Shown here in pieces: positions 17,877 through 30,832 of a stretch of DNA of 33,779 bases. The first letter of the stretch is position 1. The number at the start of each line of letters is the position of its first letter. The position numbers were made by a program, and so were the translations under genes. Below the pieces are notes generated by a model. It searched no databases and was not told where the DNA came from. It was given only the letters and a program-made list of their open reading frames with translations. Source of the DNA: Anaerolineae bacterium (GTDB lineage Bacteria; Chloroflexota; Anaerolineae; JAADDB01); assembly GCA_015486845.1 (NCBI GenBank), contig WFQU01000106.1, positions 1 to 33,779 of the forward strand, written 5' to 3'.

Positions 17877-20800
17877 TCATTCTGGTAACGATCCATCTGT
17901 TTCCCCTTCTTTCGCGACCGGAAGCCAAACATTGAATTGGACGCCATGTTCCGGTTGGCTTTTGGCAGCGATCGTGCCTCCGTGTAATTCTACCAAAGAC
18001 TTCACAATAGACAAACCCAAGCCGCTGCCCGGCACACTGCTTTGTTGAACGGTGCGTTCTTTGAAGAAAGGGTTGAACAGATGGGACAATTCCTCGGCGG
18101 GCATGCCTGGCCCGCTGTTGTGTAATTGCAAACAGCACCCTGCCCGCTCTTCCTCGCGACACGGCATCACCTGAACGCGAATCATTCCGCCAGTGGGCGT
18201 GTGTTGCCAGGCGTTAGTGATTAAATTGGACGTAATCAACAGCAATTTCTCCTTATCGCCGGAGACCAGGCAAGGTATCTCGGCAAACTCTGTCGTCAGC
18301 GTCAAGGATTGCTTTTCTATCTCTGTTCGATACCGCTCGCAAACTTCTTCTACGATGGTCTGCAACGATAACGGCTCCAATTCTAAGGTCACTTTATTCA
18401 TCTCTAAACGCGAATCTTCCAACAGATCTGTGACCAGGGAGGCCAGTTGGTTAATGTCCTGCTGCAGCTTAGCCCTATAAAGCGCTCGTTTCTTTTCTTG
18501 GCCGCGAGATAGCAAATCGAGGTGCAATTTCATGCTGGCCAAAGGCGTGCGCAATTCGTGAGCGACGACCGAAGTGAAGGCGTCCTTCGATTGCATGGCT
18601 CGGTACATTTCCGTGACATCGCGCTGCAAGACAATAAACTGGTCTATTTCTCCTGTGGCCGCCAGTACCGGCGCCAGTGTTATCTCTGCCAAATACGGTT
18701 TACCCTCTTTGCGTCGTTGCTGCATACGGCCATGCCAACTTTGGCCGCGCTGATATTGCTGGCGTATAGCTTGCAGCAGGCGTTGTTCATTCTCGTCTCC
18801 AGCAGCGCAGAGCATAGTATACGGTTTGCCGAGTAATTCCGTGCGGGAGAAGCCAGTCAAATGGATAAAACTCGCATTCGCATATTTGATCGTTTCCTGA
18901 CGATCCAGGATTACCAACGCACTTTCCATATTACGGGCGACAACTTCGAACAGTTCTTGGCCGATTTGCAACGCGGTTGTTTGCTCTGCCCGGGTAGCCT
19001 CTAATTGTTCCATTTTATCCCGCTCAAGATGCAACAACCTTTCGTGCTCGATGACAATTGCTGCGTAACTGGCCAAAATCTGGGTGACTTCTAAGTCGTG
19101 TTGATCGAAGAAGTCGACATATTCACTATCCATCATTAGAACGCCCCAAACTCGGTCATGGGCCAGGATAGGAACACCCAACCAGCCTCGTACATATTCC
19201 AGAGTTGGCAGCGTGATCCAACGTTCGTCTTCCCGCACGTCGGCGATGATAATCGGCCGGCGTGTTTGCATAATCTCCGCCAGTAAATGGCTTTTCTCAA
19301 ACAGCGAAGACGCGAAGGGGAGAACGACTTCTTCATGTTGGTAGCTATCGCTTAAAATGATTTCTGGTGTTTCATCTCGCCAGAAAATAATGGACGCAGT
19401 ATACCAATGGACTAATGTCTTGGAATACGTGAATAATCGTCTCAGTATTTGTCCTGGATCTTCGCTAGATGTCAATGTCAGAGACATTTCCCGCAGATCA
19501 TTTAACTGCTGTAACGTCCGATCCCAATTTGAGCGTATTCGTTCATTCACAATAGCCAGTGAAAGTAGCGCGACAAAAAAAGTGAGCAAAAGAACGTCAC
19601 CGGTCACGATAGATTCACCAACGGGTTCGGTGAGCAAAAGAAAGCCGGCCAAATTACCCTCGCCTTCCCCGCACAAGGGGAAACACCAGACCTTTTGATT
19701 CTGCAGTGTGCCTTCCCAATCCCATAGCAATGGTAAGGAAGCTTGTTTCAGAAGAAAGGGTGTACTTGAGGTCACTAACTGTTCGTAAAATGGTAAATGT
19801 GTCGCTGCTAATCGTCGCCCTATAATAGCAGCAGAAGACAGGTAGCCCTGTTCAGCGACAATTTCAAAATAGCCTTTACGTAGAACGGCTACCAAAGCCT
19901 CGTTATAAGGAACCGCTTTTTGCAGGATGCGCAACAATAATGTTGTCCGTTTATCATCTTTCTGTGGTTTCACCCAGGAGGAGGCAAAAGCTAACGCGTC
20001 TCGGTACAAAGCCTGTTGCATAGAAGTGGTTTGGAACGTTTTCAAGAGAGAGACGATATCGGCAATGTGGCCGGCAACGACCTGCAAAAGTGTTTCATCG
20101 GCAATAGAAAAAGCGTTTTGTTTTGTGCTTTCCATGTCAATGGCGCCAATGATTTCACCATCGACACGAATAGGCGCACAAATCTCGGAGCGAGCAGAAA
20201 ATTCAGAGGGCAAATACCAGGCGGACGTGGTGACATCAGGCAGATTGACCATTCTTCCACTACGCACCACATAGGCCATCAAGCTTCGCATCTCATCCAC
20301 AGGAATGGCATGGCGATTATTAGAGTCTATGGATCGGATCATCCCTGATTTTTTGTCCACTAAGCCAACGCACACCTTTTCTTGTGCAAATAGCTTCTGC
20401 AACTGAGCCAACAGCACGCTAAACATTGCATTGACATTAACCGATGCCAATAATGTTTTCTCTAAGGAAGAAATAGATAGCAAACGACGTTGCAACTGAG
20501 ACCAAATGTCCTCGGACTGGAGATGAACGGCGACATGGGTAACTTGGCCGGCCGGATTTAGCACCGGTAACACGTTGATTTGCACGTCATGCGTAGCTTT
20601 TTCTGTCACGAGCTGACAACGCAGGGTACATTTTTCTCTTTTTGTCCAGACATCGGCTAAGGAGAAAGACGCTGAAGTCGATTGGCAGGAACGCACATGT
20701 TCTGCTAAGGAGTCAGGCCATGTTTTACCGGCTTCCTGCTGCACGGTCGTGCCCAAAAGGCGATACCAGGCGTCATTGGCTTCCAACAGGTTACCCTCTG

Positions 20801-22808
20801 TATCGAAAAGCAGTAGGCCTTCTTCCGCTTGGGATAGGAAAGCAGCGTGTGCGCTTTGTAATTGATTCCATCGTTGGGCTCGGTGCGTAGCTTGCCACCG
20901 CAGCGCAACGCACCGGCCCAAGTGTTCGGCAATGGCCCGTTGTGTCGGCGTCAAATGCCCACGCTGCTGTAACCATAAAATAAGATGGCCATAAACTATG
21001 GTACCTTGGCCTAAAGGGATAACTAAGGCATCGGCGAAATCGTACGTATCCATCAAGGCTGCTATTGGTTCCCATGGAGAGCCGGGTTCGATGGTGCGTA
21101 ATAGAAAAGGCGTGGTAGTAGACCGGCTGCTTCCAGGCCATACTTTTTCATCCTGTAACGCTGTCGATAAAGGTTCCGGCAAGTTACGATTGTCAAAACG
21201 GCTTACTTTTTCGTCTATTAGTTGAAGTGATAGGCCGTCTGGGTGGAAATAAGAGAAGGAAAATTCGAGTAAGGTTTCAATCCAAGCCTCAGATGTGTCA
21301 GGGGATGCATCTAACCGTTTCAGAATGGCTAAAAGGCTCAAAGCATTTGCTGTGAAGGCACGCGTCTGTTTCAATTCGGATAGGAGAAAACGATGGTTGG
21401 CCGTTTTTCGCCATGTTTGGGATAGCAAGCGTGCGATTTCTTGCCAGAAGGACCAGAATTCCGTCGCCAATGGCTTGACGCCCGGCAGCGCTAAAAGCAG
21501 GAAGCCAGGTTCTTCCGGCCAGGCGATGGCCACGAGGCGCGAAAAAGCGTGCTGCTGGAAGAAAGCCCAAAGTTCAGCAGGGCAAGTCTCCGACAAATGG
21601 TCTTCGTACTGTCCGCCTGTAGCCAATCGATCCAGATCCAAGCAACTGAATAATTGTTGGTCCAGTTCAACGGTCCAGCCGGGCAAAGAAGAGAGTTGCC
21701 CGGCAGCATCTACCCGGCGGCTTACCGTTCGTTCTGCGTTTTCGCTATCCGGTAAAAAGAGCCAGCCGGCCGCCGCTGAATTTATAGTTGGCAGGGCGTG
21801 TTCCAGGACTAAAGCGCATTTTGCTGCTATCTCGTCCTCATCTTTTTCCAAAAGTGTGCTGATTTGCCACAATTGCGTTTGTAAAGCGTGCGCTCTATTC
21901 ACTGCGCGTTGCTGTGCGATAGTATCGGCTAAGCGATTCAATTGGCGGTTATACCAGCGAAACAGTTCGCGCTCTGGTTCGCTGAACGATCCTGCGATGA
22001 ACAGCAATAGCAGTTGCGGCGTATCATTCTGGTAAACGGGGATCAACGCACCGGTTTGGTGACCGCAATAACTGGTTTTGGCACTCAAGAACGGTTTTAG
22101 CGCAGGGGATTTGGAGAGCAAGGTTGACAAATCGGATAGGAAGTGCACATCTGGGGAGAGCAAGCCGGCGAATAGGCTAGCAGGGATTCGTTTTCCTTGC
22201 CAGGACGGGAGTGCTTGGGAGGGCAACAAAACATCCGCTATGGGCGATAACAATAGATCAGTCCAAATAAAGTTAGCGCTCTGTGATTCGTAGCGCAGCC
22301 CGACGACAGTGATGCCGGCCGGAGCTATGAGTTGAGCTGTCCTCCGGGCCGCTTTAGGCCAGAAATCCACAGTTGTCAGGATTAATTCACTTAAGACTTT
22401 AGCCATTTCTCCCCGCAACTGTGCGGCTTGTTGTTCTGGCGGGGAGCGGCGCAACAGAAAAACGACTTGTTCCTCATCCGTCGTGCCTTTCAGCCGGAAA
22501 AAGGTCGCCTCGACGGAGAAATAGAATTGTTGTTGGTGCATCATGAGCAGTTGGCCTTGCCATCTGTCTTGTTCCGCCACAAGATGAAGAATTTCTTGCT
22601 GGTCCGGAAAGGTGCGAACGGCCAAAAGTTCATAGAAGGATTGACCTTGTAGTGTTGCCGGCGTGTAACCGTGCCATTGTGCGGCCAGCGCGTTGGCATA
22701 AATGATACGGCCGTTCGGAGAGATAATGATGACACCATCGCTGCTGTAGCCAACCAGACGCAAAATATCAGGATCAAGACTTGGCTGTGGAAGCATCGGC
22801 TCTGACAA
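17877..22808 (-). CDS. Giant soluble hybrid-sensor histidine kinase (PAS-multi-GAF-PAS-HisKA-HATPase)
   Basis: 1643 aa, TTG start with AGAAGGA upstream (an ATG 4 codons on is possible). Domains by inspection: PAS (about 15-125, IIISPNGRIIYANALAAQWHGY), three GAF-like regions (about 140-295, 320-480, 495-650), PAS (about 660-765), GAF (775-930, best match, EICAPIRVDGEIIGAIDMES), two more GAF-like (945-1100, 1115-1265, LGVPILAHDRVWGVLMMDS), PAS (1275-1400, ILDRQETIKYANASFIHLTG), HisKA with His1417 in VVAHELRTPL, and HATPase_c with N-box SNLITNAWQH, G1 NSGPGMP and G2 GSGLGLSIV. No transmembrane helix or signal peptide, so it senses cytoplasmic or diffusible ligands. No response regulator or receiver domain is attached or adjacent. 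The GAF copies are divergent and their ligands cannot be named. It is followed by bcp. Confidence 0.92.
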   Translation of the reverse strand: MSEPMLPQPSLDPDILRLVGYSSDGVIIISPNGRIIYANALAAQWHGYTPATLQGQSFYELLAVRTFPDQQEILHLVAEQDRWQGQLLMMHQQQFYFSVEATFFRLKGTTDEEQVVFLLRRSPPEQQAAQLRGEMAKVLSELILTTVDFWPKAARRTAQLIAPAGITVVGLRYESQSANFIWTDLLLSPIADVLLPSQALPSWQGKRIPASLFAGLLSPDVHFLSDLSTLLSKSPALKPFLSAKTSYCGHQTGALIPVYQNDTPQLLLLFIAGSFSEPERELFRWYNRQLNRLADTIAQQRAVNRAHALQTQLWQISTLLEKDEDEIAAKCALVLEHALPTINSAAAGWLFLPDSENAERTVSRRVDAAGQLSSLPGWTVELDQQLFSCLDLDRLATGGQYEDHLSETCPAELWAFFQQHAFSRLVAIAWPEEPGFLLLALPGVKPLATEFWSFWQEIARLLSQTWRKTANHRFLLSELKQTRAFTANALSLLAILKRLDASPDTSEAWIETLLEFSFSYFHPDGLSLQLIDEKVSRFDNRNLPEPLSTALQDEKVWPGSSRSTTTPFLLRTIEPGSPWEPIAALMDTYDFADALVIPLGQGTIVYGHLILWLQQRGHLTPTQRAIAEHLGRCVALRWQATHRAQRWNQLQSAHAAFLSQAEEGLLLFDTEGNLLEANDAWYRLLGTTVQQEAGKTWPDSLAEHVRSCQSTSASFSLADVWTKREKCTLRCQLVTEKATHDVQINVLPVLNPAGQVTHVAVHLQSEDIWSQLQRRLLSISSLEKTLLASVNVNAMFSVLLAQLQKLFAQEKVCVGLVDKKSGMIRSIDSNNRHAIPVDEMRSLMAYVVRSGRMVNLPDVTTSAWYLPSEFSARSEICAPIRVDGEIIGAIDMESTKQNAFSIADETLLQVVAGHIADIVSLLKTFQTTSMQQALYRDALAFASSWVKPQKDDKRTTLLLRILQKAVPYNEALVAVLRKGYFEIVAEQGYLSSAAIIGRRLAATHLPFYEQLVTSSTPFLLKQASLPLLWDWEGTLQNQKVWCFPLCGEGEGNLAGFLLLTEPVGESIVTGDVLLLTFFVALLSLAIVNERIRSNWDRTLQQLNDLREMSLTLTSSEDPGQILRRLFTYSKTLVHWYTASIIFWRDETPEIILSDSYQHEEVVLPFASSLFEKSHLLAEIMQTRRPIIIADVREDERWITLPTLEYVRGWLGVPILAHDRVWGVLMMDSEYVDFFDQHDLEVTQILASYAAIVIEHERLLHLERDKMEQLEATRAEQTTALQIGQELFEVVARNMESALVILDRQETIKYANASFIHLTGFSRTELLGKPYTMLCAAGDENEQRLLQAIRQQYQRGQSWHGRMQQRRKEGKPYLAEITLAPVLAATGEIDQFIVLQRDVTEMYRAMQSKDAFTSVVAHELRTPLASMKLHLDLLSRGQEKKRALYRAKLQQDINQLASLVTDLLEDSRLEMNKVTLELEPLSLQTIVEEVCERYRTEIEKQSLTLTTEFAEIPCLVSGDKEKLLLITSNLITNAWQHTPTGGMIRVQVMPCREEERAGCCLQLHNSGPGMPAEELSHLFNPFFKERTVQQSSVPGSGLGLSIVKSLVELHGGTIAAKSQPEHGVQFNVWLPVAKEGETDGSLPE

Positions 22809-24512: not shown

Positions 24513-27500
24513 TTACCAACTTGTGCGCAACAATGGCACATAGAGGCGGAATGGATACGCCCGATCACCAAAAGCAACCTCATAAGTCATTGAGCTGTCC
24601 ACGTTGAGTGGTAACACATTACTGGTGATGGAGTAATAGCCGGGGGGGTCTGTTTCCAGTACCAAATAATGGGCAGCAGGCACAGAGCCGATGATGAACT
24701 GGCCATTAGAGGCCGTGTAAACCGCTTTGAATAGCGGTTCTGACGGCTGCAAAGCACCATCCTGATTCGTATCCACATACAAGCGTAAATAAGCGTGGGA
24801 AAGGCCTGGCTCGCCGGCATCTTGCACACCGTTTTCGTTTAGGTCGTCCCAGACCAACAACCGGATTTGTGCGTTCCCCGGCGTAGGCGTGACCGTCGGC
24901 GTCGGCGTCGGCGTCGGTGAAGCAGTTGGGGTGGGCGTCGCCGTAGGCGCCGGCGTGAAAGTCGGCGTGGCCGTGGGCGTCGGCAGCAGATAGTCGCCAA
25001 AATGGATGGGTGCAATGGGTAGGCCATCTTGAACAACAACAATGGCCTCGTTCGGCGTCGTGCTTCTATAACCGGGCGGATCCGTCTCTACGGCCCGATA
25101 CGTGTCCGGCGGCAACGCGCTGAAAGAGAATTGGCCGTTAGATAGCACCAACCGCTCACTAATTTTCAGGTTAGCTCCGTTGTACAGCGTTATGATGGAT
25201 CCGCCTAAAGGCGGTTCCCCTGGGTCGCAGGCTGCATTCTCATTGGTGTCCAAGCACACTTGCCCCCAAACGGTGTTGGCCGGATAGACCGGCGTCGGCG
25301 TGATGGTCGGCGTATCCGTTGGCGTCGGCGAAGGCCCTGGCGTCGGCGTATCGGTAGCCGTTGGTGAAGGCGTTGGTGTGCCGGTCGCAGTAGCTGTTGG
25401 CGTCGCCGTCGGCGGTGTGCCGGTCCAAGTCGGCGAAGGGGTCGGCGTGGGCGTCGGTTGGTAGTAGATCACTTCCAACTTGGGGTGCATTTTCGGCTTC
25501 GTCGTGGGTGCATAGTCGTTGGAAATAAACTGCAACTTCAAACTACGATTCAAGTCGTTTGTGCCAACCAGTAAGAGCCCGTTATTCTCGCTCGGGTGTT
25601 GCACCCAATCGTTGACCATATCCGTCACGTCGAAACTAACCCACGACGGCGCATCGCTATCGTGCAACAGGACATTGTCATCGGGAGAAGCGAGGTAATC
25701 TGTCCCTGCCATGGCCGCGCCGGCAACAGTCCAGGCCACGCCTGATTTCGTTTCATTCCAGGTCACTTCCATTTCTTCCCACGGTTTTAGCAGCCGATAT
25801 GGGCGCAACATAGCCGCATAGGCAGGATCATAAGTCTGAAAATAGGAAAGATACATGGAAAGGGTCGCTTTCCACACAGACTTGTCTTGTGGAATCGTTG
25901 AAACGTCGAATTTGATGACTGTTTTAGCTTCGTCATACGGTTTCGTGCGCACGCGTAATGTGTCGGCGTTACCATAATTTGTGCTTTTTGCCTCGCGGTC
26001 CAGATAGCTATCCCAGCTATTTTGGTAACCATCCACGCCTTTTTGGAACGAAACGGTGACAGCATCAGGCGGCATGGAACCGGAAGGCGTGGGCGTGTCC
26101 ACCGGTGTCGGCGTGTAAGTCGCCGTAGGCGTGGGTGTGGCCGTAGGCGTTGGCGGCGTGCCGGTGGTCGTGGGGGTGGGGGTGCTGGTCGGCCCGGCCA
26201 GAGTTGGTGTCGGCGTGGGCGTAGGCGTCCCAGCTGTGGCTGCCGGTGGCAGCGTGTTGCTGATTTTTGTCACGTCCACAAAATGTATCCACTCATTGCC
26301 ATCGCTACGGCAGTCGATGCGGAAATCGGAACCACCGGCCAGGCCGTTGGCGAACCGGCCGTCCACGATGAGGAACTGCGCCCGGCGCCAGGTCAAGCTG
26401 TTGGTTTTTTGCACGACCATGGTGCCCACTGGCTGCTGGACGCCGTCCAAGTAGCTCAGCGCCGCTGCTTTTTCGGTGCCATCCTGGGCATCGTACAAGA
26501 GTTGCCACGTATCGCTGCCCCGGTCCAAGTAAATCACGCTAATGGTCACCGGCACGCTGCCGCTCAGATTGTAAATGTAGCCATCATCGATCTTGAAGAA
26601 CATGTTCGGATTGCCGCTGCCCTGATCTGTGCGCCGAGCGACCCACGACTCGCGCGTTAGCGGCAGGCCGGCGTCGTAAGGGGATGGACTGTAGACAGCG
26701 TCCAACGAAGTGATGGTTGAATCATCAGTAACGGCGACTGTTTTGCCACCGGGAACGCTGTCATCTTGCGTGAGCCACATTTTATAGTTACCAGGCTGAT
26801 AATTCCAGGGACCGGGGTCCGGAGAGCCTGCAGTACAAGTTTGCCACGGCGCCCGGTGGGCCCGCATGGCTGTCCACACGCTGGGCGTGTTATGGACCGT
26901 TTTGCCCAAATAACGGCTGGCCCAATGGAACAGTGCATAATTATCGTAATAGTATTCGCCGTAAGGCGGACTCACATTTTGCACGAAGAGGTCGATATTG
27001 AGTCGGAAGACATCCGCGTGCTTGTCCAGGCCGTTCAGAAGCCCCCAGTAAACTTCATCGAAATTCTGGCAGTTTTTGTACGGTCCCAACATGTAGCGGT
27101 AAGTCTCGAAAGCAATGGGTACATCGCTGCCCCGAGAAGTAAGCTGGTCGTATTTGCCCGTGTGGTTGCTGCTGTTATAAGCATTCTCATCGTCGGGATA
27201 AAGGCCGTTGAAAGAAAGACCCACGCCACGATCCGCGGCGTGGTTGGCAATATCCCTCCGCTCGTAGGAGTGTTTGAAGTAAGGCGCCATTTGGTTGAAG
27301 AGCTGCACCGATCCGCCGGCAAAAGCGTTGGCATACATATCAATAATTTCGTTAGTGGTCGAAATCCACAGCGCCGAGTCCAATCCGGCCGACTCCAAAT
27401 TGTCGACATCGGCCAAATCACAAGGTGCATTCTCGCCGTAACGTCCTACCCCCGTTGCCACCCAGGCTAAACGGGGATCATTCTTGAAAGCAGCGCCTAA

Positions 27501-28004
27501 AGCATTGACGAAATTGTGATACGGCGTTTTATATGCGTCAACCCAATAACGGGGGATTTTCCACGCTTCGTTGGCCTGGCCGTCCCCATTCAGGTCTTTC
27601 CAGATAACGACCACCGCATCGCCGCTACGCATGTACGGCGGGGAAGCATTGATACCGCCACAGCAACCGCCGTTATACGTGCTGATGGCGATGGCGCCTC
27701 TTTTCCCTTTGCTGGACTCGCTGGCCAACCAGTTGCGGATCGGGTCGAAATTGTACACGCCCGGCGATGATTCCAGTTCTGCCCAGTTAAAGGTACGCAA
27801 TCCGCCCACTAGCCCAAAAGGTTCCTTGTCGAAATTGCGGTAATCGGATGCCATGTAAATGCCCGGCAGAAATCCGGAAGGCGCGTGGATGCTGGTTTCC
27901 GGCTGTGGCGGCGTCATGGCGAAGACCATCCCCATGACCGGGGCCAATAAAAGGAGAAACAGAATTAGCGAGACGATGTAAGCGACGTAGTGTATTCTTT
28001 TCAT
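24513..28004 (-). CDS. Secreted modular protein: TIM-barrel-like glycosidase candidate, DNRLRE, two SdrB/Cna-B-like domains, Thr-Pro linkers
   Basis: 1163 aa. Signal peptide about 1-36 (IVSLILFLLLLAPVMGMVFA). Residues about 45-380 resemble a beta/alpha-barrel hydrolase (FNWAELESSPGVYNFDPI near the start is typical of GH42/GH5-like barrels), but no catalytic family can be fixed. A beta domain runs to about 585. Thr-Pro linker 1 precedes a DNRLRE-type domain (about 645-850: DSYLDREAKSTNYGNADTL, TKPKMHPKLEVIYYQ). Linker 2, an SdrB-like domain (about 911-1007, VCLDTNENAACDPGEPPLGG), linker 3 and a second such domain (about 1044-1150, DDLNENGVQDAGEPGLSHA) follow; both have the calcium-binding-like D-x-N-x-N-G/A loop. 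The protein ends FRLYVPLLRTSW. Likely surface or extracellular and carbohydrate-acting. No LPXTG anchor. Confidence 0.8.
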   Translation of the reverse strand: MKRIHYVAYIVSLILFLLLLAPVMGMVFAMTPPQPETSIHAPSGFLPGIYMASDYRNFDKEPFGLVGGLRTFNWAELESSPGVYNFDPIRNWLASESSKGKRGAIAISTYNGGCCGGINASPPYMRSGDAVVVIWKDLNGDGQANEAWKIPRYWVDAYKTPYHNFVNALGAAFKNDPRLAWVATGVGRYGENAPCDLADVDNLESAGLDSALWISTTNEIIDMYANAFAGGSVQLFNQMAPYFKHSYERRDIANHAADRGVGLSFNGLYPDDENAYNSSNHTGKYDQLTSRGSDVPIAFETYRYMLGPYKNCQNFDEVYWGLLNGLDKHADVFRLNIDLFVQNVSPPYGEYYYDNYALFHWASRYLGKTVHNTPSVWTAMRAHRAPWQTCTAGSPDPGPWNYQPGNYKMWLTQDDSVPGGKTVAVTDDSTITSLDAVYSPSPYDAGLPLTRESWVARRTDQGSGNPNMFFKIDDGYIYNLSGSVPVTISVIYLDRGSDTWQLLYDAQDGTEKAAALSYLDGVQQPVGTMVVQKTNSLTWRRAQFLIVDGRFANGLAGGSDFRIDCRSDGNEWIHFVDVTKISNTLPPAATAGTPTPTPTPTLAGPTSTPTPTTTGTPPTPTATPTPTATYTPTPVDTPTPSGSMPPDAVTVSFQKGVDGYQNSWDSYLDREAKSTNYGNADTLRVRTKPYDEAKTVIKFDVSTIPQDKSVWKATLSMYLSYFQTYDPAYAAMLRPYRLLKPWEEMEVTWNETKSGVAWTVAGAAMAGTDYLASPDDNVLLHDSDAPSWVSFDVTDMVNDWVQHPSENNGLLLVGTNDLNRSLKLQFISNDYAPTTKPKMHPKLEVIYYQPTPTPTPSPTWTGTPPTATPTATATGTPTPSPTATDTPTPGPSPTPTDTPTITPTPVYPANTVWGQVCLDTNENAACDPGEPPLGGSIITLYNGANLKISERLVLSNGQFSFSALPPDTYRAVETDPPGYRSTTPNEAIVVVQDGLPIAPIHFGDYLLPTPTATPTFTPAPTATPTPTASPTPTPTPTVTPTPGNAQIRLLVWDDLNENGVQDAGEPGLSHAYLRLYVDTNQDGALQPSEPLFKAVYTASNGQFIIGSVPAAHYLVLETDPPGYYSITSNVLPLNVDSSMTYEVAFGDRAYPFRLYVPLLRTSW
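24880..24990. repeat. Low-complexity tract encoding Thr-Pro linker 3
   Basis: Imperfect 6-bp tandem (plus strand GGCGTC/GGCGTA/GGCGTG) within the secreted-protein gene, encoding alternating Thr/Pro with Ala and Ser. In-frame slippage could vary linker length. Confidence 0.85.
25286..25465. repeat. Low-complexity tract encoding Thr-Pro linker 2
   Basis: The same GGCGTN 6-bp period as linker 3, about 60 codons between the DNRLRE-type domain and the first SdrB-like domain. Confidence 0.85.
26078..26240. repeat. Low-complexity tract encoding Thr-Pro linker 1
   Basis: GGCGTN-period repeats encoding the linker between the N-terminal catalytic-like half and the DNRLRE-type domain. Antisense reading frames over this region are artefacts of the repeat. 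Confidence 0.85.
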
Positions 28005-29433: not shown

Positions 29434-30768
29434 CTAACACCCTATTTTCTCTATTTGCTGTTGTACCGAGATGATTTCCATTTGTTCATGCTCAATCTCG
29501 GACTCAACGTGCAACGGCACATCGGGCGTATAGTATTCTTTCTGTACGGTCAATGCGTTCAAGTTGCGGCGGTGGATCGCCAGCAATTGACGTAATGTTT
29601 GGCAGTCAGCGACGTGCAGCGTGCGTGGCCGGCGTGACGTGGAGAGTGTTTCTCCTCGCCCCAGCACCTTTTCTCGAACCGTGCGGAAAATGATGCCATC
29701 CACCGCACGCAGGAAGAGTACTGGCGTGCCAAAACCCCGATCATCCGGATCTAAGAGCATGCTGCGGCTGCGGGCAACGGCCACTGCGGCGTCTACGTGT
29801 CCTATCGTGTCCCCTTCCAAGAGTGCCTCGTAGAAATCCTGGGCGAAGGCGATAGCGATGTCGTCCCGAATACTATATTGCATAGCGACCACAGCCGGCA
29901 CACCGGCCCGGACTAAAGCGGGAGCCATCCCCACATAGGCCTGACCGCTGCTGGACGTACTGCCGCCCTCGCAAGCATTCAACAAGACCAGCTTAATGGA
30001 TGGGGTATTATGTACCATTTGGCGCACTTGCTGGCCGGAGATAGGGACTAATCGTCCTCCGCTGTCATTGAAAAAGAGCATCGCTTTATTTTGTCGCGGA
30101 TCGAAATGACCATGTCCGATAAAATGGATGATGTGCGGCTGAAAGGCAGCAATGTGCCGCGCTGCGTCTTGGGCCGTTAACGGTTCGCCGCGCAGAAACT
30201 CTACCACCAACCGTTCTGGGAAACGACGCGCGACCTGTTCGATGGCTTTTTCTTCCACTTGGGTATCCAGCCCGGAGCCATAAGGCACCATGACTAACAT
30301 GCGCAAAGGCAACCGGACGTTTAGGGAGCGGATGTGGCCGAACCCGGTAGCCGGATCCACGTAGCGGACAAGTGGCGTGCGCATCGACGCGGCCAGAAAA
30401 TCGTTGTGCTCTGGCCAATAAAGGAATTCCCACGGAAGGACAGCGATTTCCGGCGGATCGATGCTCAATCGGATGCGCACACCATTGTCGTGGCTGAGTA
30501 CCAAGTCTAAACTGCGCACGAAAAGCGTGTGAATGCGGTCACGGAATAAGCTATCGAAGAGATAGTGCCCCAAGCGAACGAAGATCGTGTTACTCCGTTC
30601 GCCTTCTGCCGCCAGCTTGAGCCATTTCTCGAAATCAGGGTTGCCGAAAGGCAAGTTTAAAGGGCCGTGTTCCCGGCCTAAAGGAATATCGCCAGACTCA
30701 GCCCGAGCTTCCACGTCATAGCCAGCACCACTTTGTGTGATTGTGATGTCTAAATTGCTGTATTGCAT
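29434..30768 (-). CDS. CHAT-domain (caspase-like) protein with C-terminal helical adapter module
   Basis: 444 aa, ATG with AGGAG 5 nt upstream. Residues about 100-365 are a CHAT peptidase domain. LPWEFLYWPE (111-120) and RYVDP lead in, IIHFIGHGHFD carries His219, and KLVLLNACEGG carries Cys266, the expected caspase-type dyad. MAPALVRAGVPAVVAMQYSI and GTPVLFLRAVDG close the fold. The N-terminal 95 residues (EHGPLNLPFG, RDRIHTLFVRSLDLVL) are the helical cap seen in stand-alone CHAT proteins. Residues about 390-442 (LRQLLAIHRRNLNALTVQKE, then VPLHVESEIEHEQMEII) form two charged helices. They resemble, from memory, adapter modules shared by NTPase and protease conflict proteins in Chloroflexota and cyanobacteria. 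The target is unknown. No TPR or gasdermin neighbour. Strong own promoter. Confidence 0.88.
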   Translation of the reverse strand: MQYSNLDITITQSGAGYDVEARAESGDIPLGREHGPLNLPFGNPDFEKWLKLAAEGERSNTIFVRLGHYLFDSLFRDRIHTLFVRSLDLVLSHDNGVRIRLSIDPPEIAVLPWEFLYWPEHNDFLAASMRTPLVRYVDPATGFGHIRSLNVRLPLRMLVMVPYGSGLDTQVEEKAIEQVARRFPERLVVEFLRGEPLTAQDAARHIAAFQPHIIHFIGHGHFDPRQNKAMLFFNDSGGRLVPISGQQVRQMVHNTPSIKLVLLNACEGGSTSSSGQAYVGMAPALVRAGVPAVVAMQYSIRDDIAIAFAQDFYEALLEGDTIGHVDAAVAVARSRSMLLDPDDRGFGTPVLFLRAVDGIIFRTVREKVLGRGETLSTSRRPRTLHVADCQTLRQLLAIHRRNLNALTVQKEYYTPDVPLHVESEIEHEQMEIISVQQQIEKIGC

Positions 30769-30803
30769 GACGTCTCCTATCCCCTTACAAACGAGACTGT
30801 TGA

Positions 30804-30832
30804 ATTGTATAAGTTTCGTGTGCAGATGTCAA
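30804..30832 (-). promoter_or_regulatory. Near-consensus sigma-70-type promoter of the CHAT gene
   Basis: On the minus strand: TTGACA (30832-30827), 17-nt spacer, TACAAT (30809-30804). Predicted start of transcription near 30797, giving a leader of about 30 nt. Confidence 0.8.

Follow-up and report, generated by a model that had tools for sequence, protein, structure and literature searches.

The gene at 29434..30768 (-) encodes a CHAT-domain protease of 444 aa with an ATG start, as judged from its open reading frame, the Pfam match and an orthologue of 73% identity. The protein ends in a short helical tail. Which protein could switch such a protease on, and is it the tail that connects the two? 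In the original prediction the tail was likened to adapters of bacterial conflict systems and the protein was regarded as a pre-made protease whose trigger is encoded elsewhere, a candidate for an undescribed defence or cell-death component. We followed these ideas in the window, i.e. the whole analysed stretch of 33,779 nucleotides, in the genome to which it belongs (3.28 Mb, 98% complete, 182 contigs) and in other genomes of the class and phylum.

Gene surroundings, promoter and protease body

Gaps of ~290 nt and ~490 nt separate the CHAT gene from its upstream and downstream neighbours, respectively, and in the five genomes compared the neighbours show no conservation among orthologues, which agrees with the isolation predicted for the gene. 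No defence island was found near it. Elsewhere in the window, positions 17877-22808 (-) encode a 1643-aa histidine kinase with multiple PAS and GAF domains, and positions 24513-28004 (-) a secreted 1163-aa protein whose linkers are rich in TPTPTP by sequence inspection.

The gene was also thought to have a strong promoter of its own. A pattern scan locates a -35 hexamer TTGACA at 30827..30832 (-) and, across a 17-nt spacer, a -10 hexamer TACAAT at 30804..30809 (-); the complete element (30832..30804 (-)) matches the consensus at 11 of 12 positions. By itself the scan proves nothing, since three promoter-like sites were observed in the region and 2.3 are expected from shuffled sequence, so that the count is not significant. 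Support for a real promoter comes from the 73% orthologue, whose genome belongs to the same family (locus L005, genome G503): CTTGACA-17-ATACAAT is identical there, amid upstream flanking DNA that has diverged in the alignment. Conservation of both hexamers and their spacing thus supports, at the level of sequence, a real, strong and dedicated promoter. A ribosome-binding site AGGAG is read directly at 30774..30778 (-), 5 nt ahead of the ATG; the letters at this site are not identical in the orthologue.

The CHAT domain itself is unambiguous: Pfam PF12770 matches aa 87-341 (29746..30510 (-)) with an E value of 3e-26 and 93 bits at a curated cut-off of 24. An AlphaFold2 model (mean pLDDT 84) shows, when matched to known structures, that aa 2-86 and the CHAT domain together form a pair of pseudo-caspase and caspase of the separase/Csx29 type, with Z scores of 22-25 to separase and Csx29; the caspase-like identity claimed earlier is confirmed by both lines. 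The predicted catalytic residues are likewise intact. His219 (codon 30112..30114 (-)) aligns with the HFIGHG motif and Cys266 (codon 29971..29973 (-)) with the LNAC motif of 8tl0, and both are unchanged throughout an alignment of 20 CHAT sequences. From the domain match, the dyad and the modelled fold, the catalytic body is predicted to be an ordinary CHAT protease, and an active peptidase is likely. PADLOC recognizes only the CHAT part of SAVED_CHAT, together with a weak match to BovA, and Pfam returns CHAT-type matches only, with no SAVED domain and no TPR. A second CHAT domain, which scores higher, lies in a 955-aa frame of the same genome (G000:C130:10376-11143); the hairpin module described below was not found on this frame with the module profile.

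The C-terminal hairpin and the proteins that carry it

Behind the CHAT domain follows a flexible linker (aa 366-381, 29626..29673 (-)), which has pLDDT values under 50 and varies among relatives in sequence and length. The adapter module proper comprises aa 385-444 (29437..29616 (-); profile E 2.2e-21). In the AlphaFold2 model two helices, 382-413 and 419-442, fold behind the disordered linker into a hairpin (382-442), so that the earlier description of the tail as a helix pair is correct. Pfam finds no family on the tail, and a search of the window's genome with the single tail sequence returned the self-match only; a profile was required. Searching 400 genomes of the phylum with the single sequence yielded three relatives: the N-terminus of a NACHT-type ATPase (assigned by inspection; no Pfam match), the C-terminus of a different CHAT protease and a protein encoded immediately behind a caspase (C14) gene. 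A profile of five tail sequences then found the module in 28 genomes, as many as 11 times in one genome, and an iterated profile, from which the ATPase of the window's own genome was excluded, found more than 80 places across the phylum. Class-wide, 76 of 346 genomes carry between 1 and 18 copies. On plasmids no copy was found at the sensitivity of tblastn with a consensus-like query.

The module is ~60 aa long with the consensus L..LL...RR.L..LE.Q.A.FG...P.H...QI.D....I..L...L; what sets it apart from an ordinary coiled coil is the FG...P.H loop that joins the helices. Since this loop motif is conserved and none of the reversed or shuffled decoys reached even E 100 with the iterated profile, the explanation as a generic coiled coil was discarded for the family in its entirety. 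Mostly the module lies within ~100 residues of a protein end, with some internal exceptions. Proteins that bear it carry Pfam domains such as CHAT, NB-ARC, NACHT, AAA_16/22/35 and TIR_2, as well as SIR2_2, FHA, FGE-sulfatase and beta-helix. Adjacent genes that both carry the module are found elsewhere (L025-L030, L048, L049); the two copies in the window's genome are unlinked. At L025-L030, NB-ARC-TPR proteins with an N-terminal module adjoin a small gene bearing another copy.

CHAT orthologues of 33-73% identity retain the module, and their tails are therefore not coiled coils of unrelated sequence. With one STAND-like ATPase of its own genome and many effectors and NTPases of the phylum sharing the tail, the adapter-like character first proposed for it holds up, and we regard the adapter interpretation as well supported by sequence comparison.

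Other CHAT proteins of the class have exchanged the tail, among others for an NB-ARC-TPR fusion or a helical domain of ~150 aa, so that the CHAT protease appears as a mobile effector part. Direct fusions of CHAT with an NB-ARC/AAA ATPase are found at L109 and L124, and on L109 both NB-ARC and TPR are recognized by Pfam. The conserved C-terminal helical domain of ~150 aa is common to the class CHATs at L103, L104, L106, L110 and L116, and is perhaps another unnamed adapter.

A candidate partner ATPase and its distribution

In the window's genome, the module profile found a single further copy (G000:C90:9866-10036(-)) with an E value of 6.6e-15, from a profile that included this very sequence. 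Profiles excluding it still returned E 0.007 (five-sequence profile) and E 2.5e-8 (iterated profile); because these two were not trained on it, the second carrier sought in the genome was found independently. Weak third matches on contig C2 (five-sequence profile) and contig C95 (a later profile) were not accepted.

The second copy forms the C-terminus of a P-loop ATPase of 444 aa. Its relatives conserve a Walker A motif, G..R.GKTS, and a Walker B motif, LLLxD. The AAA/STAND Pfam matches of the ATPase itself are all sub-threshold; a 54% orthologue reaches 38.1 bits with nSTAND1 at a cut-off of 27.1. In its structural model (pLDDT 75) the fold is similar to that of ORC-like STAND ATPases, plant NLRs and CED-4, and the C-terminus is a long hairpin (362-397 and 403-431), the same as predicted on the CHAT protein. 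An overlap of 4 nt joins the ATPase gene to the gene of a secreted C25 (gingipain-type) peptidase (Pfam E 2e-72; L038:4234-6813 (-) on the same contig), which could be a second, or the real, partner of the ATPase.

CHAT orthologues with the module occur in seven other genomes of the class, from the same and from other families. The tailed CHATs were collected from fetched loci, and the set may lack some; in each of the eight genomes that have one, the module-bearing ATPase is encoded too, without linkage to the CHAT gene. As the ATPase family is present in only ~60 of 346 class genomes, this co-occurrence is unlikely by chance (hypergeometric 5e-7, uncorrected for kinship). A ninth genome, G408, contains a CHAT protein with an internal module and also has members of this ATPase family, of which the one that was fetched showed no module. 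In 14 control genomes of the class that lack this CHAT, four of them from the same family, the module was not found. The distribution is patchy, with both the CHAT protein and the module ATPase missing from four of the six genomes of the family that were searched.

In most relatives examined the ATPase is the second gene of a two-gene operon, which is conserved in at least ten related genomes. The product of the first gene combines a Reg_prop/Y_Y_Y propeller and a STAND ATPase domain with a signal peptide and a single membrane span. In Anaerolineae this pair of a propeller-STAND protein and a soluble STAND-like ATPase, which frequently bears the hairpin tail, was observed at L157, L159, L160, L161, L162, L164, L165 and L191-L194. 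The propeller-STAND protein is absent from the window's genome and from its nearest relative; the search for it in the window's genome returned only propeller fragments of another protein.

Possible roles and comparison with known systems

We give slightly better than even chances to the view that the gene product is a cytosolic protease and acts as the effector of an NTPase system coupled through adapters. In such a system the CHAT protease would be produced constitutively and would be inactive or harmless as a free monomer. By analogy with STAND biology, the module-bearing ATPase would sense a trigger or receive a signal, open and oligomerise; its clustered hairpins could capture the hairpins of CHAT molecules, and the crowded CHAT domains would be activated by induced proximity and cut cellular or pro-effector proteins. 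In related genomes, in which the module is found fused to SIR2, TIR and other effectors, it may recruit these to NTPases in the same way. The tail being common to ATPase, TIR, SIR2 and NACHT proteins, the protease probably serves as an effector in a bacterial network for signalling or cell death that has so far been poorly described.

The hairpin could also be a homo-oligomerisation tail of CHAT, with the copy on the ATPase serving the oligomerisation of the ATPase and the two proteins never meeting. Self-association is common for helical hairpins, and the distant PDB matches of the module profile are coiled coils, designed as well as natural. Moreover, about 30 of the 76 module-bearing genomes hold a single copy at E 1e-4, frequently that of the ATPase alone. 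In the eight genomes, CHAT and ATPase tails from one genome resemble each other no more closely than pairs made by permutation do (P 0.65), so that a self-oligomerising tail stays a rival; the trees of CHAT modules and ATPase modules correlate weakly (r 0.47, P 0.018). Still, in the eight genomes the tailed CHAT always comes with the module ATPase, both are missing together in the four other same-family genomes, and the module is often present on both of two neighbouring genes (L025-L030, L049), as expected of partners; we consider homo-oligomerisation unlikely. A reading of the gene as a remnant, decayed or solitary, with a partnerless tail is highly improbable: the gene does stand alone among varying neighbours, with one other module copy in its genome, but the dyad, the frame and the promoter footprint are intact and the tail is kept between the 73% orthologues and beyond.

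A further alternative leaves the coupling of protease and ATPase in place, as it concerns purpose and is compatible with the adapter mechanism. The propeller-STAND protein could pass a ligand signal to the ATPase, and the ATPase could control the CHAT protease, in a housekeeping envelope or stress pathway, in which regulated proteolysis of a regulator involves neither death nor defence. Regulated proteolysis by CHAT-type proteases is established for HetF, separase and Csx29-Csx30, and the window gene lies outside any defence island that we could find. Since the ATPase mostly shares an operon with the propeller-STAND protein, as in the ten or more related genomes above, envelope or general stress signalling deserves the same weight as phage defence. 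Against it, the propeller-STAND protein is missing from the window's genome and from its closest relative, the fusions to TIR, SIR2 and NACHT with FGE-type sensors are of a kind characteristic of conflict systems, and the presence of the system in the family is patchy. A housekeeping purpose has, in our estimate, not quite an even chance, and the originally suggested defence or cell-death role is plausible. Returning to the adapter-coupled system, we propose tentatively, and with some doubt, that the two-helix hairpin with the FG...P.H loop is an undescribed adapter family, one that Pfam does not model, and that it provides the wiring of an apoptosome-like network in Chloroflexota, in which STAND ATPases, sometimes adjoining STAND sensors with extracellular propellers, recruit interchangeable and unlinked CHAT, SIR2 and TIR effectors.

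The closest precedent for the module is the EAD principle, in which terminal adapters are common to NTPases and effectors, as described by Kaur et al. in 2020 (PMC7159879) and 2021 (PMC8195603). Like EAD1-12, the module is small, non-enzymatic, helical and mostly terminal, is carried by NTPases and by effectors (peptidase, TIR, SIR2, FGE/FGS) and has multiple copies in a genome, in a phylum that includes filamentous bacteria. It differs from EAD1-12 in being one hairpin of two helices joined by an FG...P.H loop, and in that none of the Pfam EAD models recognizes it. A second copy in the neighbouring gene, frequent among EADs, is seen for the module at the loci named above, whereas the copies of the window's genome are unlinked. 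PMC7159879 also reports a tendency of cognate EAD copies to be more alike than others, which the CHAT and ATPase copies of one genome do not follow. EAD9 was rejected as the identity of the module: four of 40 members touch it weakly (best E 0.11), and the EAD9 model (PF19962), run on ten module-bearing genomes, gave nothing above 25 bits and matched no module place. As the Pfam EAD models do not match and the copies depart from one reported tendency, we did not file the module as a named EAD. It appears to work like one and is apparently unnamed, although it may have a name in supplementary EAD alignments. The main text of the 2020 EAD paper (PMC7159879) makes no mention of CHAT.

Among the relatives of the protease, SAVED-CHAT 8tl0 is the closest solved sequence (phmmer E 3e-6, profile E 2.8e-19, both dyad motifs aligned), and its fold matches residues 150-362 with Z 23.4 and 2.1 A over 189 residues at 25% identity. 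In contrast to SAVED-CHAT, the protein has no SAVED sensor; its N-terminal part folds in the model as the pseudo-caspase known from CHAT and separase, and the putative regulator is the C-terminal hairpin. The best overall fold match is the Craspase TPR-CHAT protein Csx29 of type III-E CRISPR (Z 25.3 over 303 residues, aa 2-362). Here identity is about 10%, Pfam finds no TPR repeats and no Cas7-11 gene was seen in the window. Separase shares the two-domain fold of pseudo-caspase and caspase (Z 22.4, aa 2-362); the bacterial protein lacks its helical superhelix and is about 14% identical.

CHAT proteases with other regulators, such as SAVED-CHAT and Csx29, are known, and in bacteria those of CRISPR systems are the best studied. 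New in comparison is an adapter family, apparently without a name, that links CHAT with STAND proteins outside CRISPR. The combination of a STAND ATPase, a small helical adapter and a caspase-fold protease is analogous to the apoptosomes of Apaf-1, CED-4 and NLRs, and the ATPase model matches RPP1 and CED-4 with Z scores of about 10-12. It differs from these in that the adapter is a two-helix hairpin rather than a Death-fold domain, the genes are unlinked and oligomerisation is here a conjecture. If the proposed coupling is true, it would add a very small new adapter to the apoptosis-type wiring of bacteria and join caspase-fold CHAT proteases to STAND switches outside CRISPR; as the window's genome has only two module copies, adapter coupling could be tested there directly, in a system reduced to two proteins.
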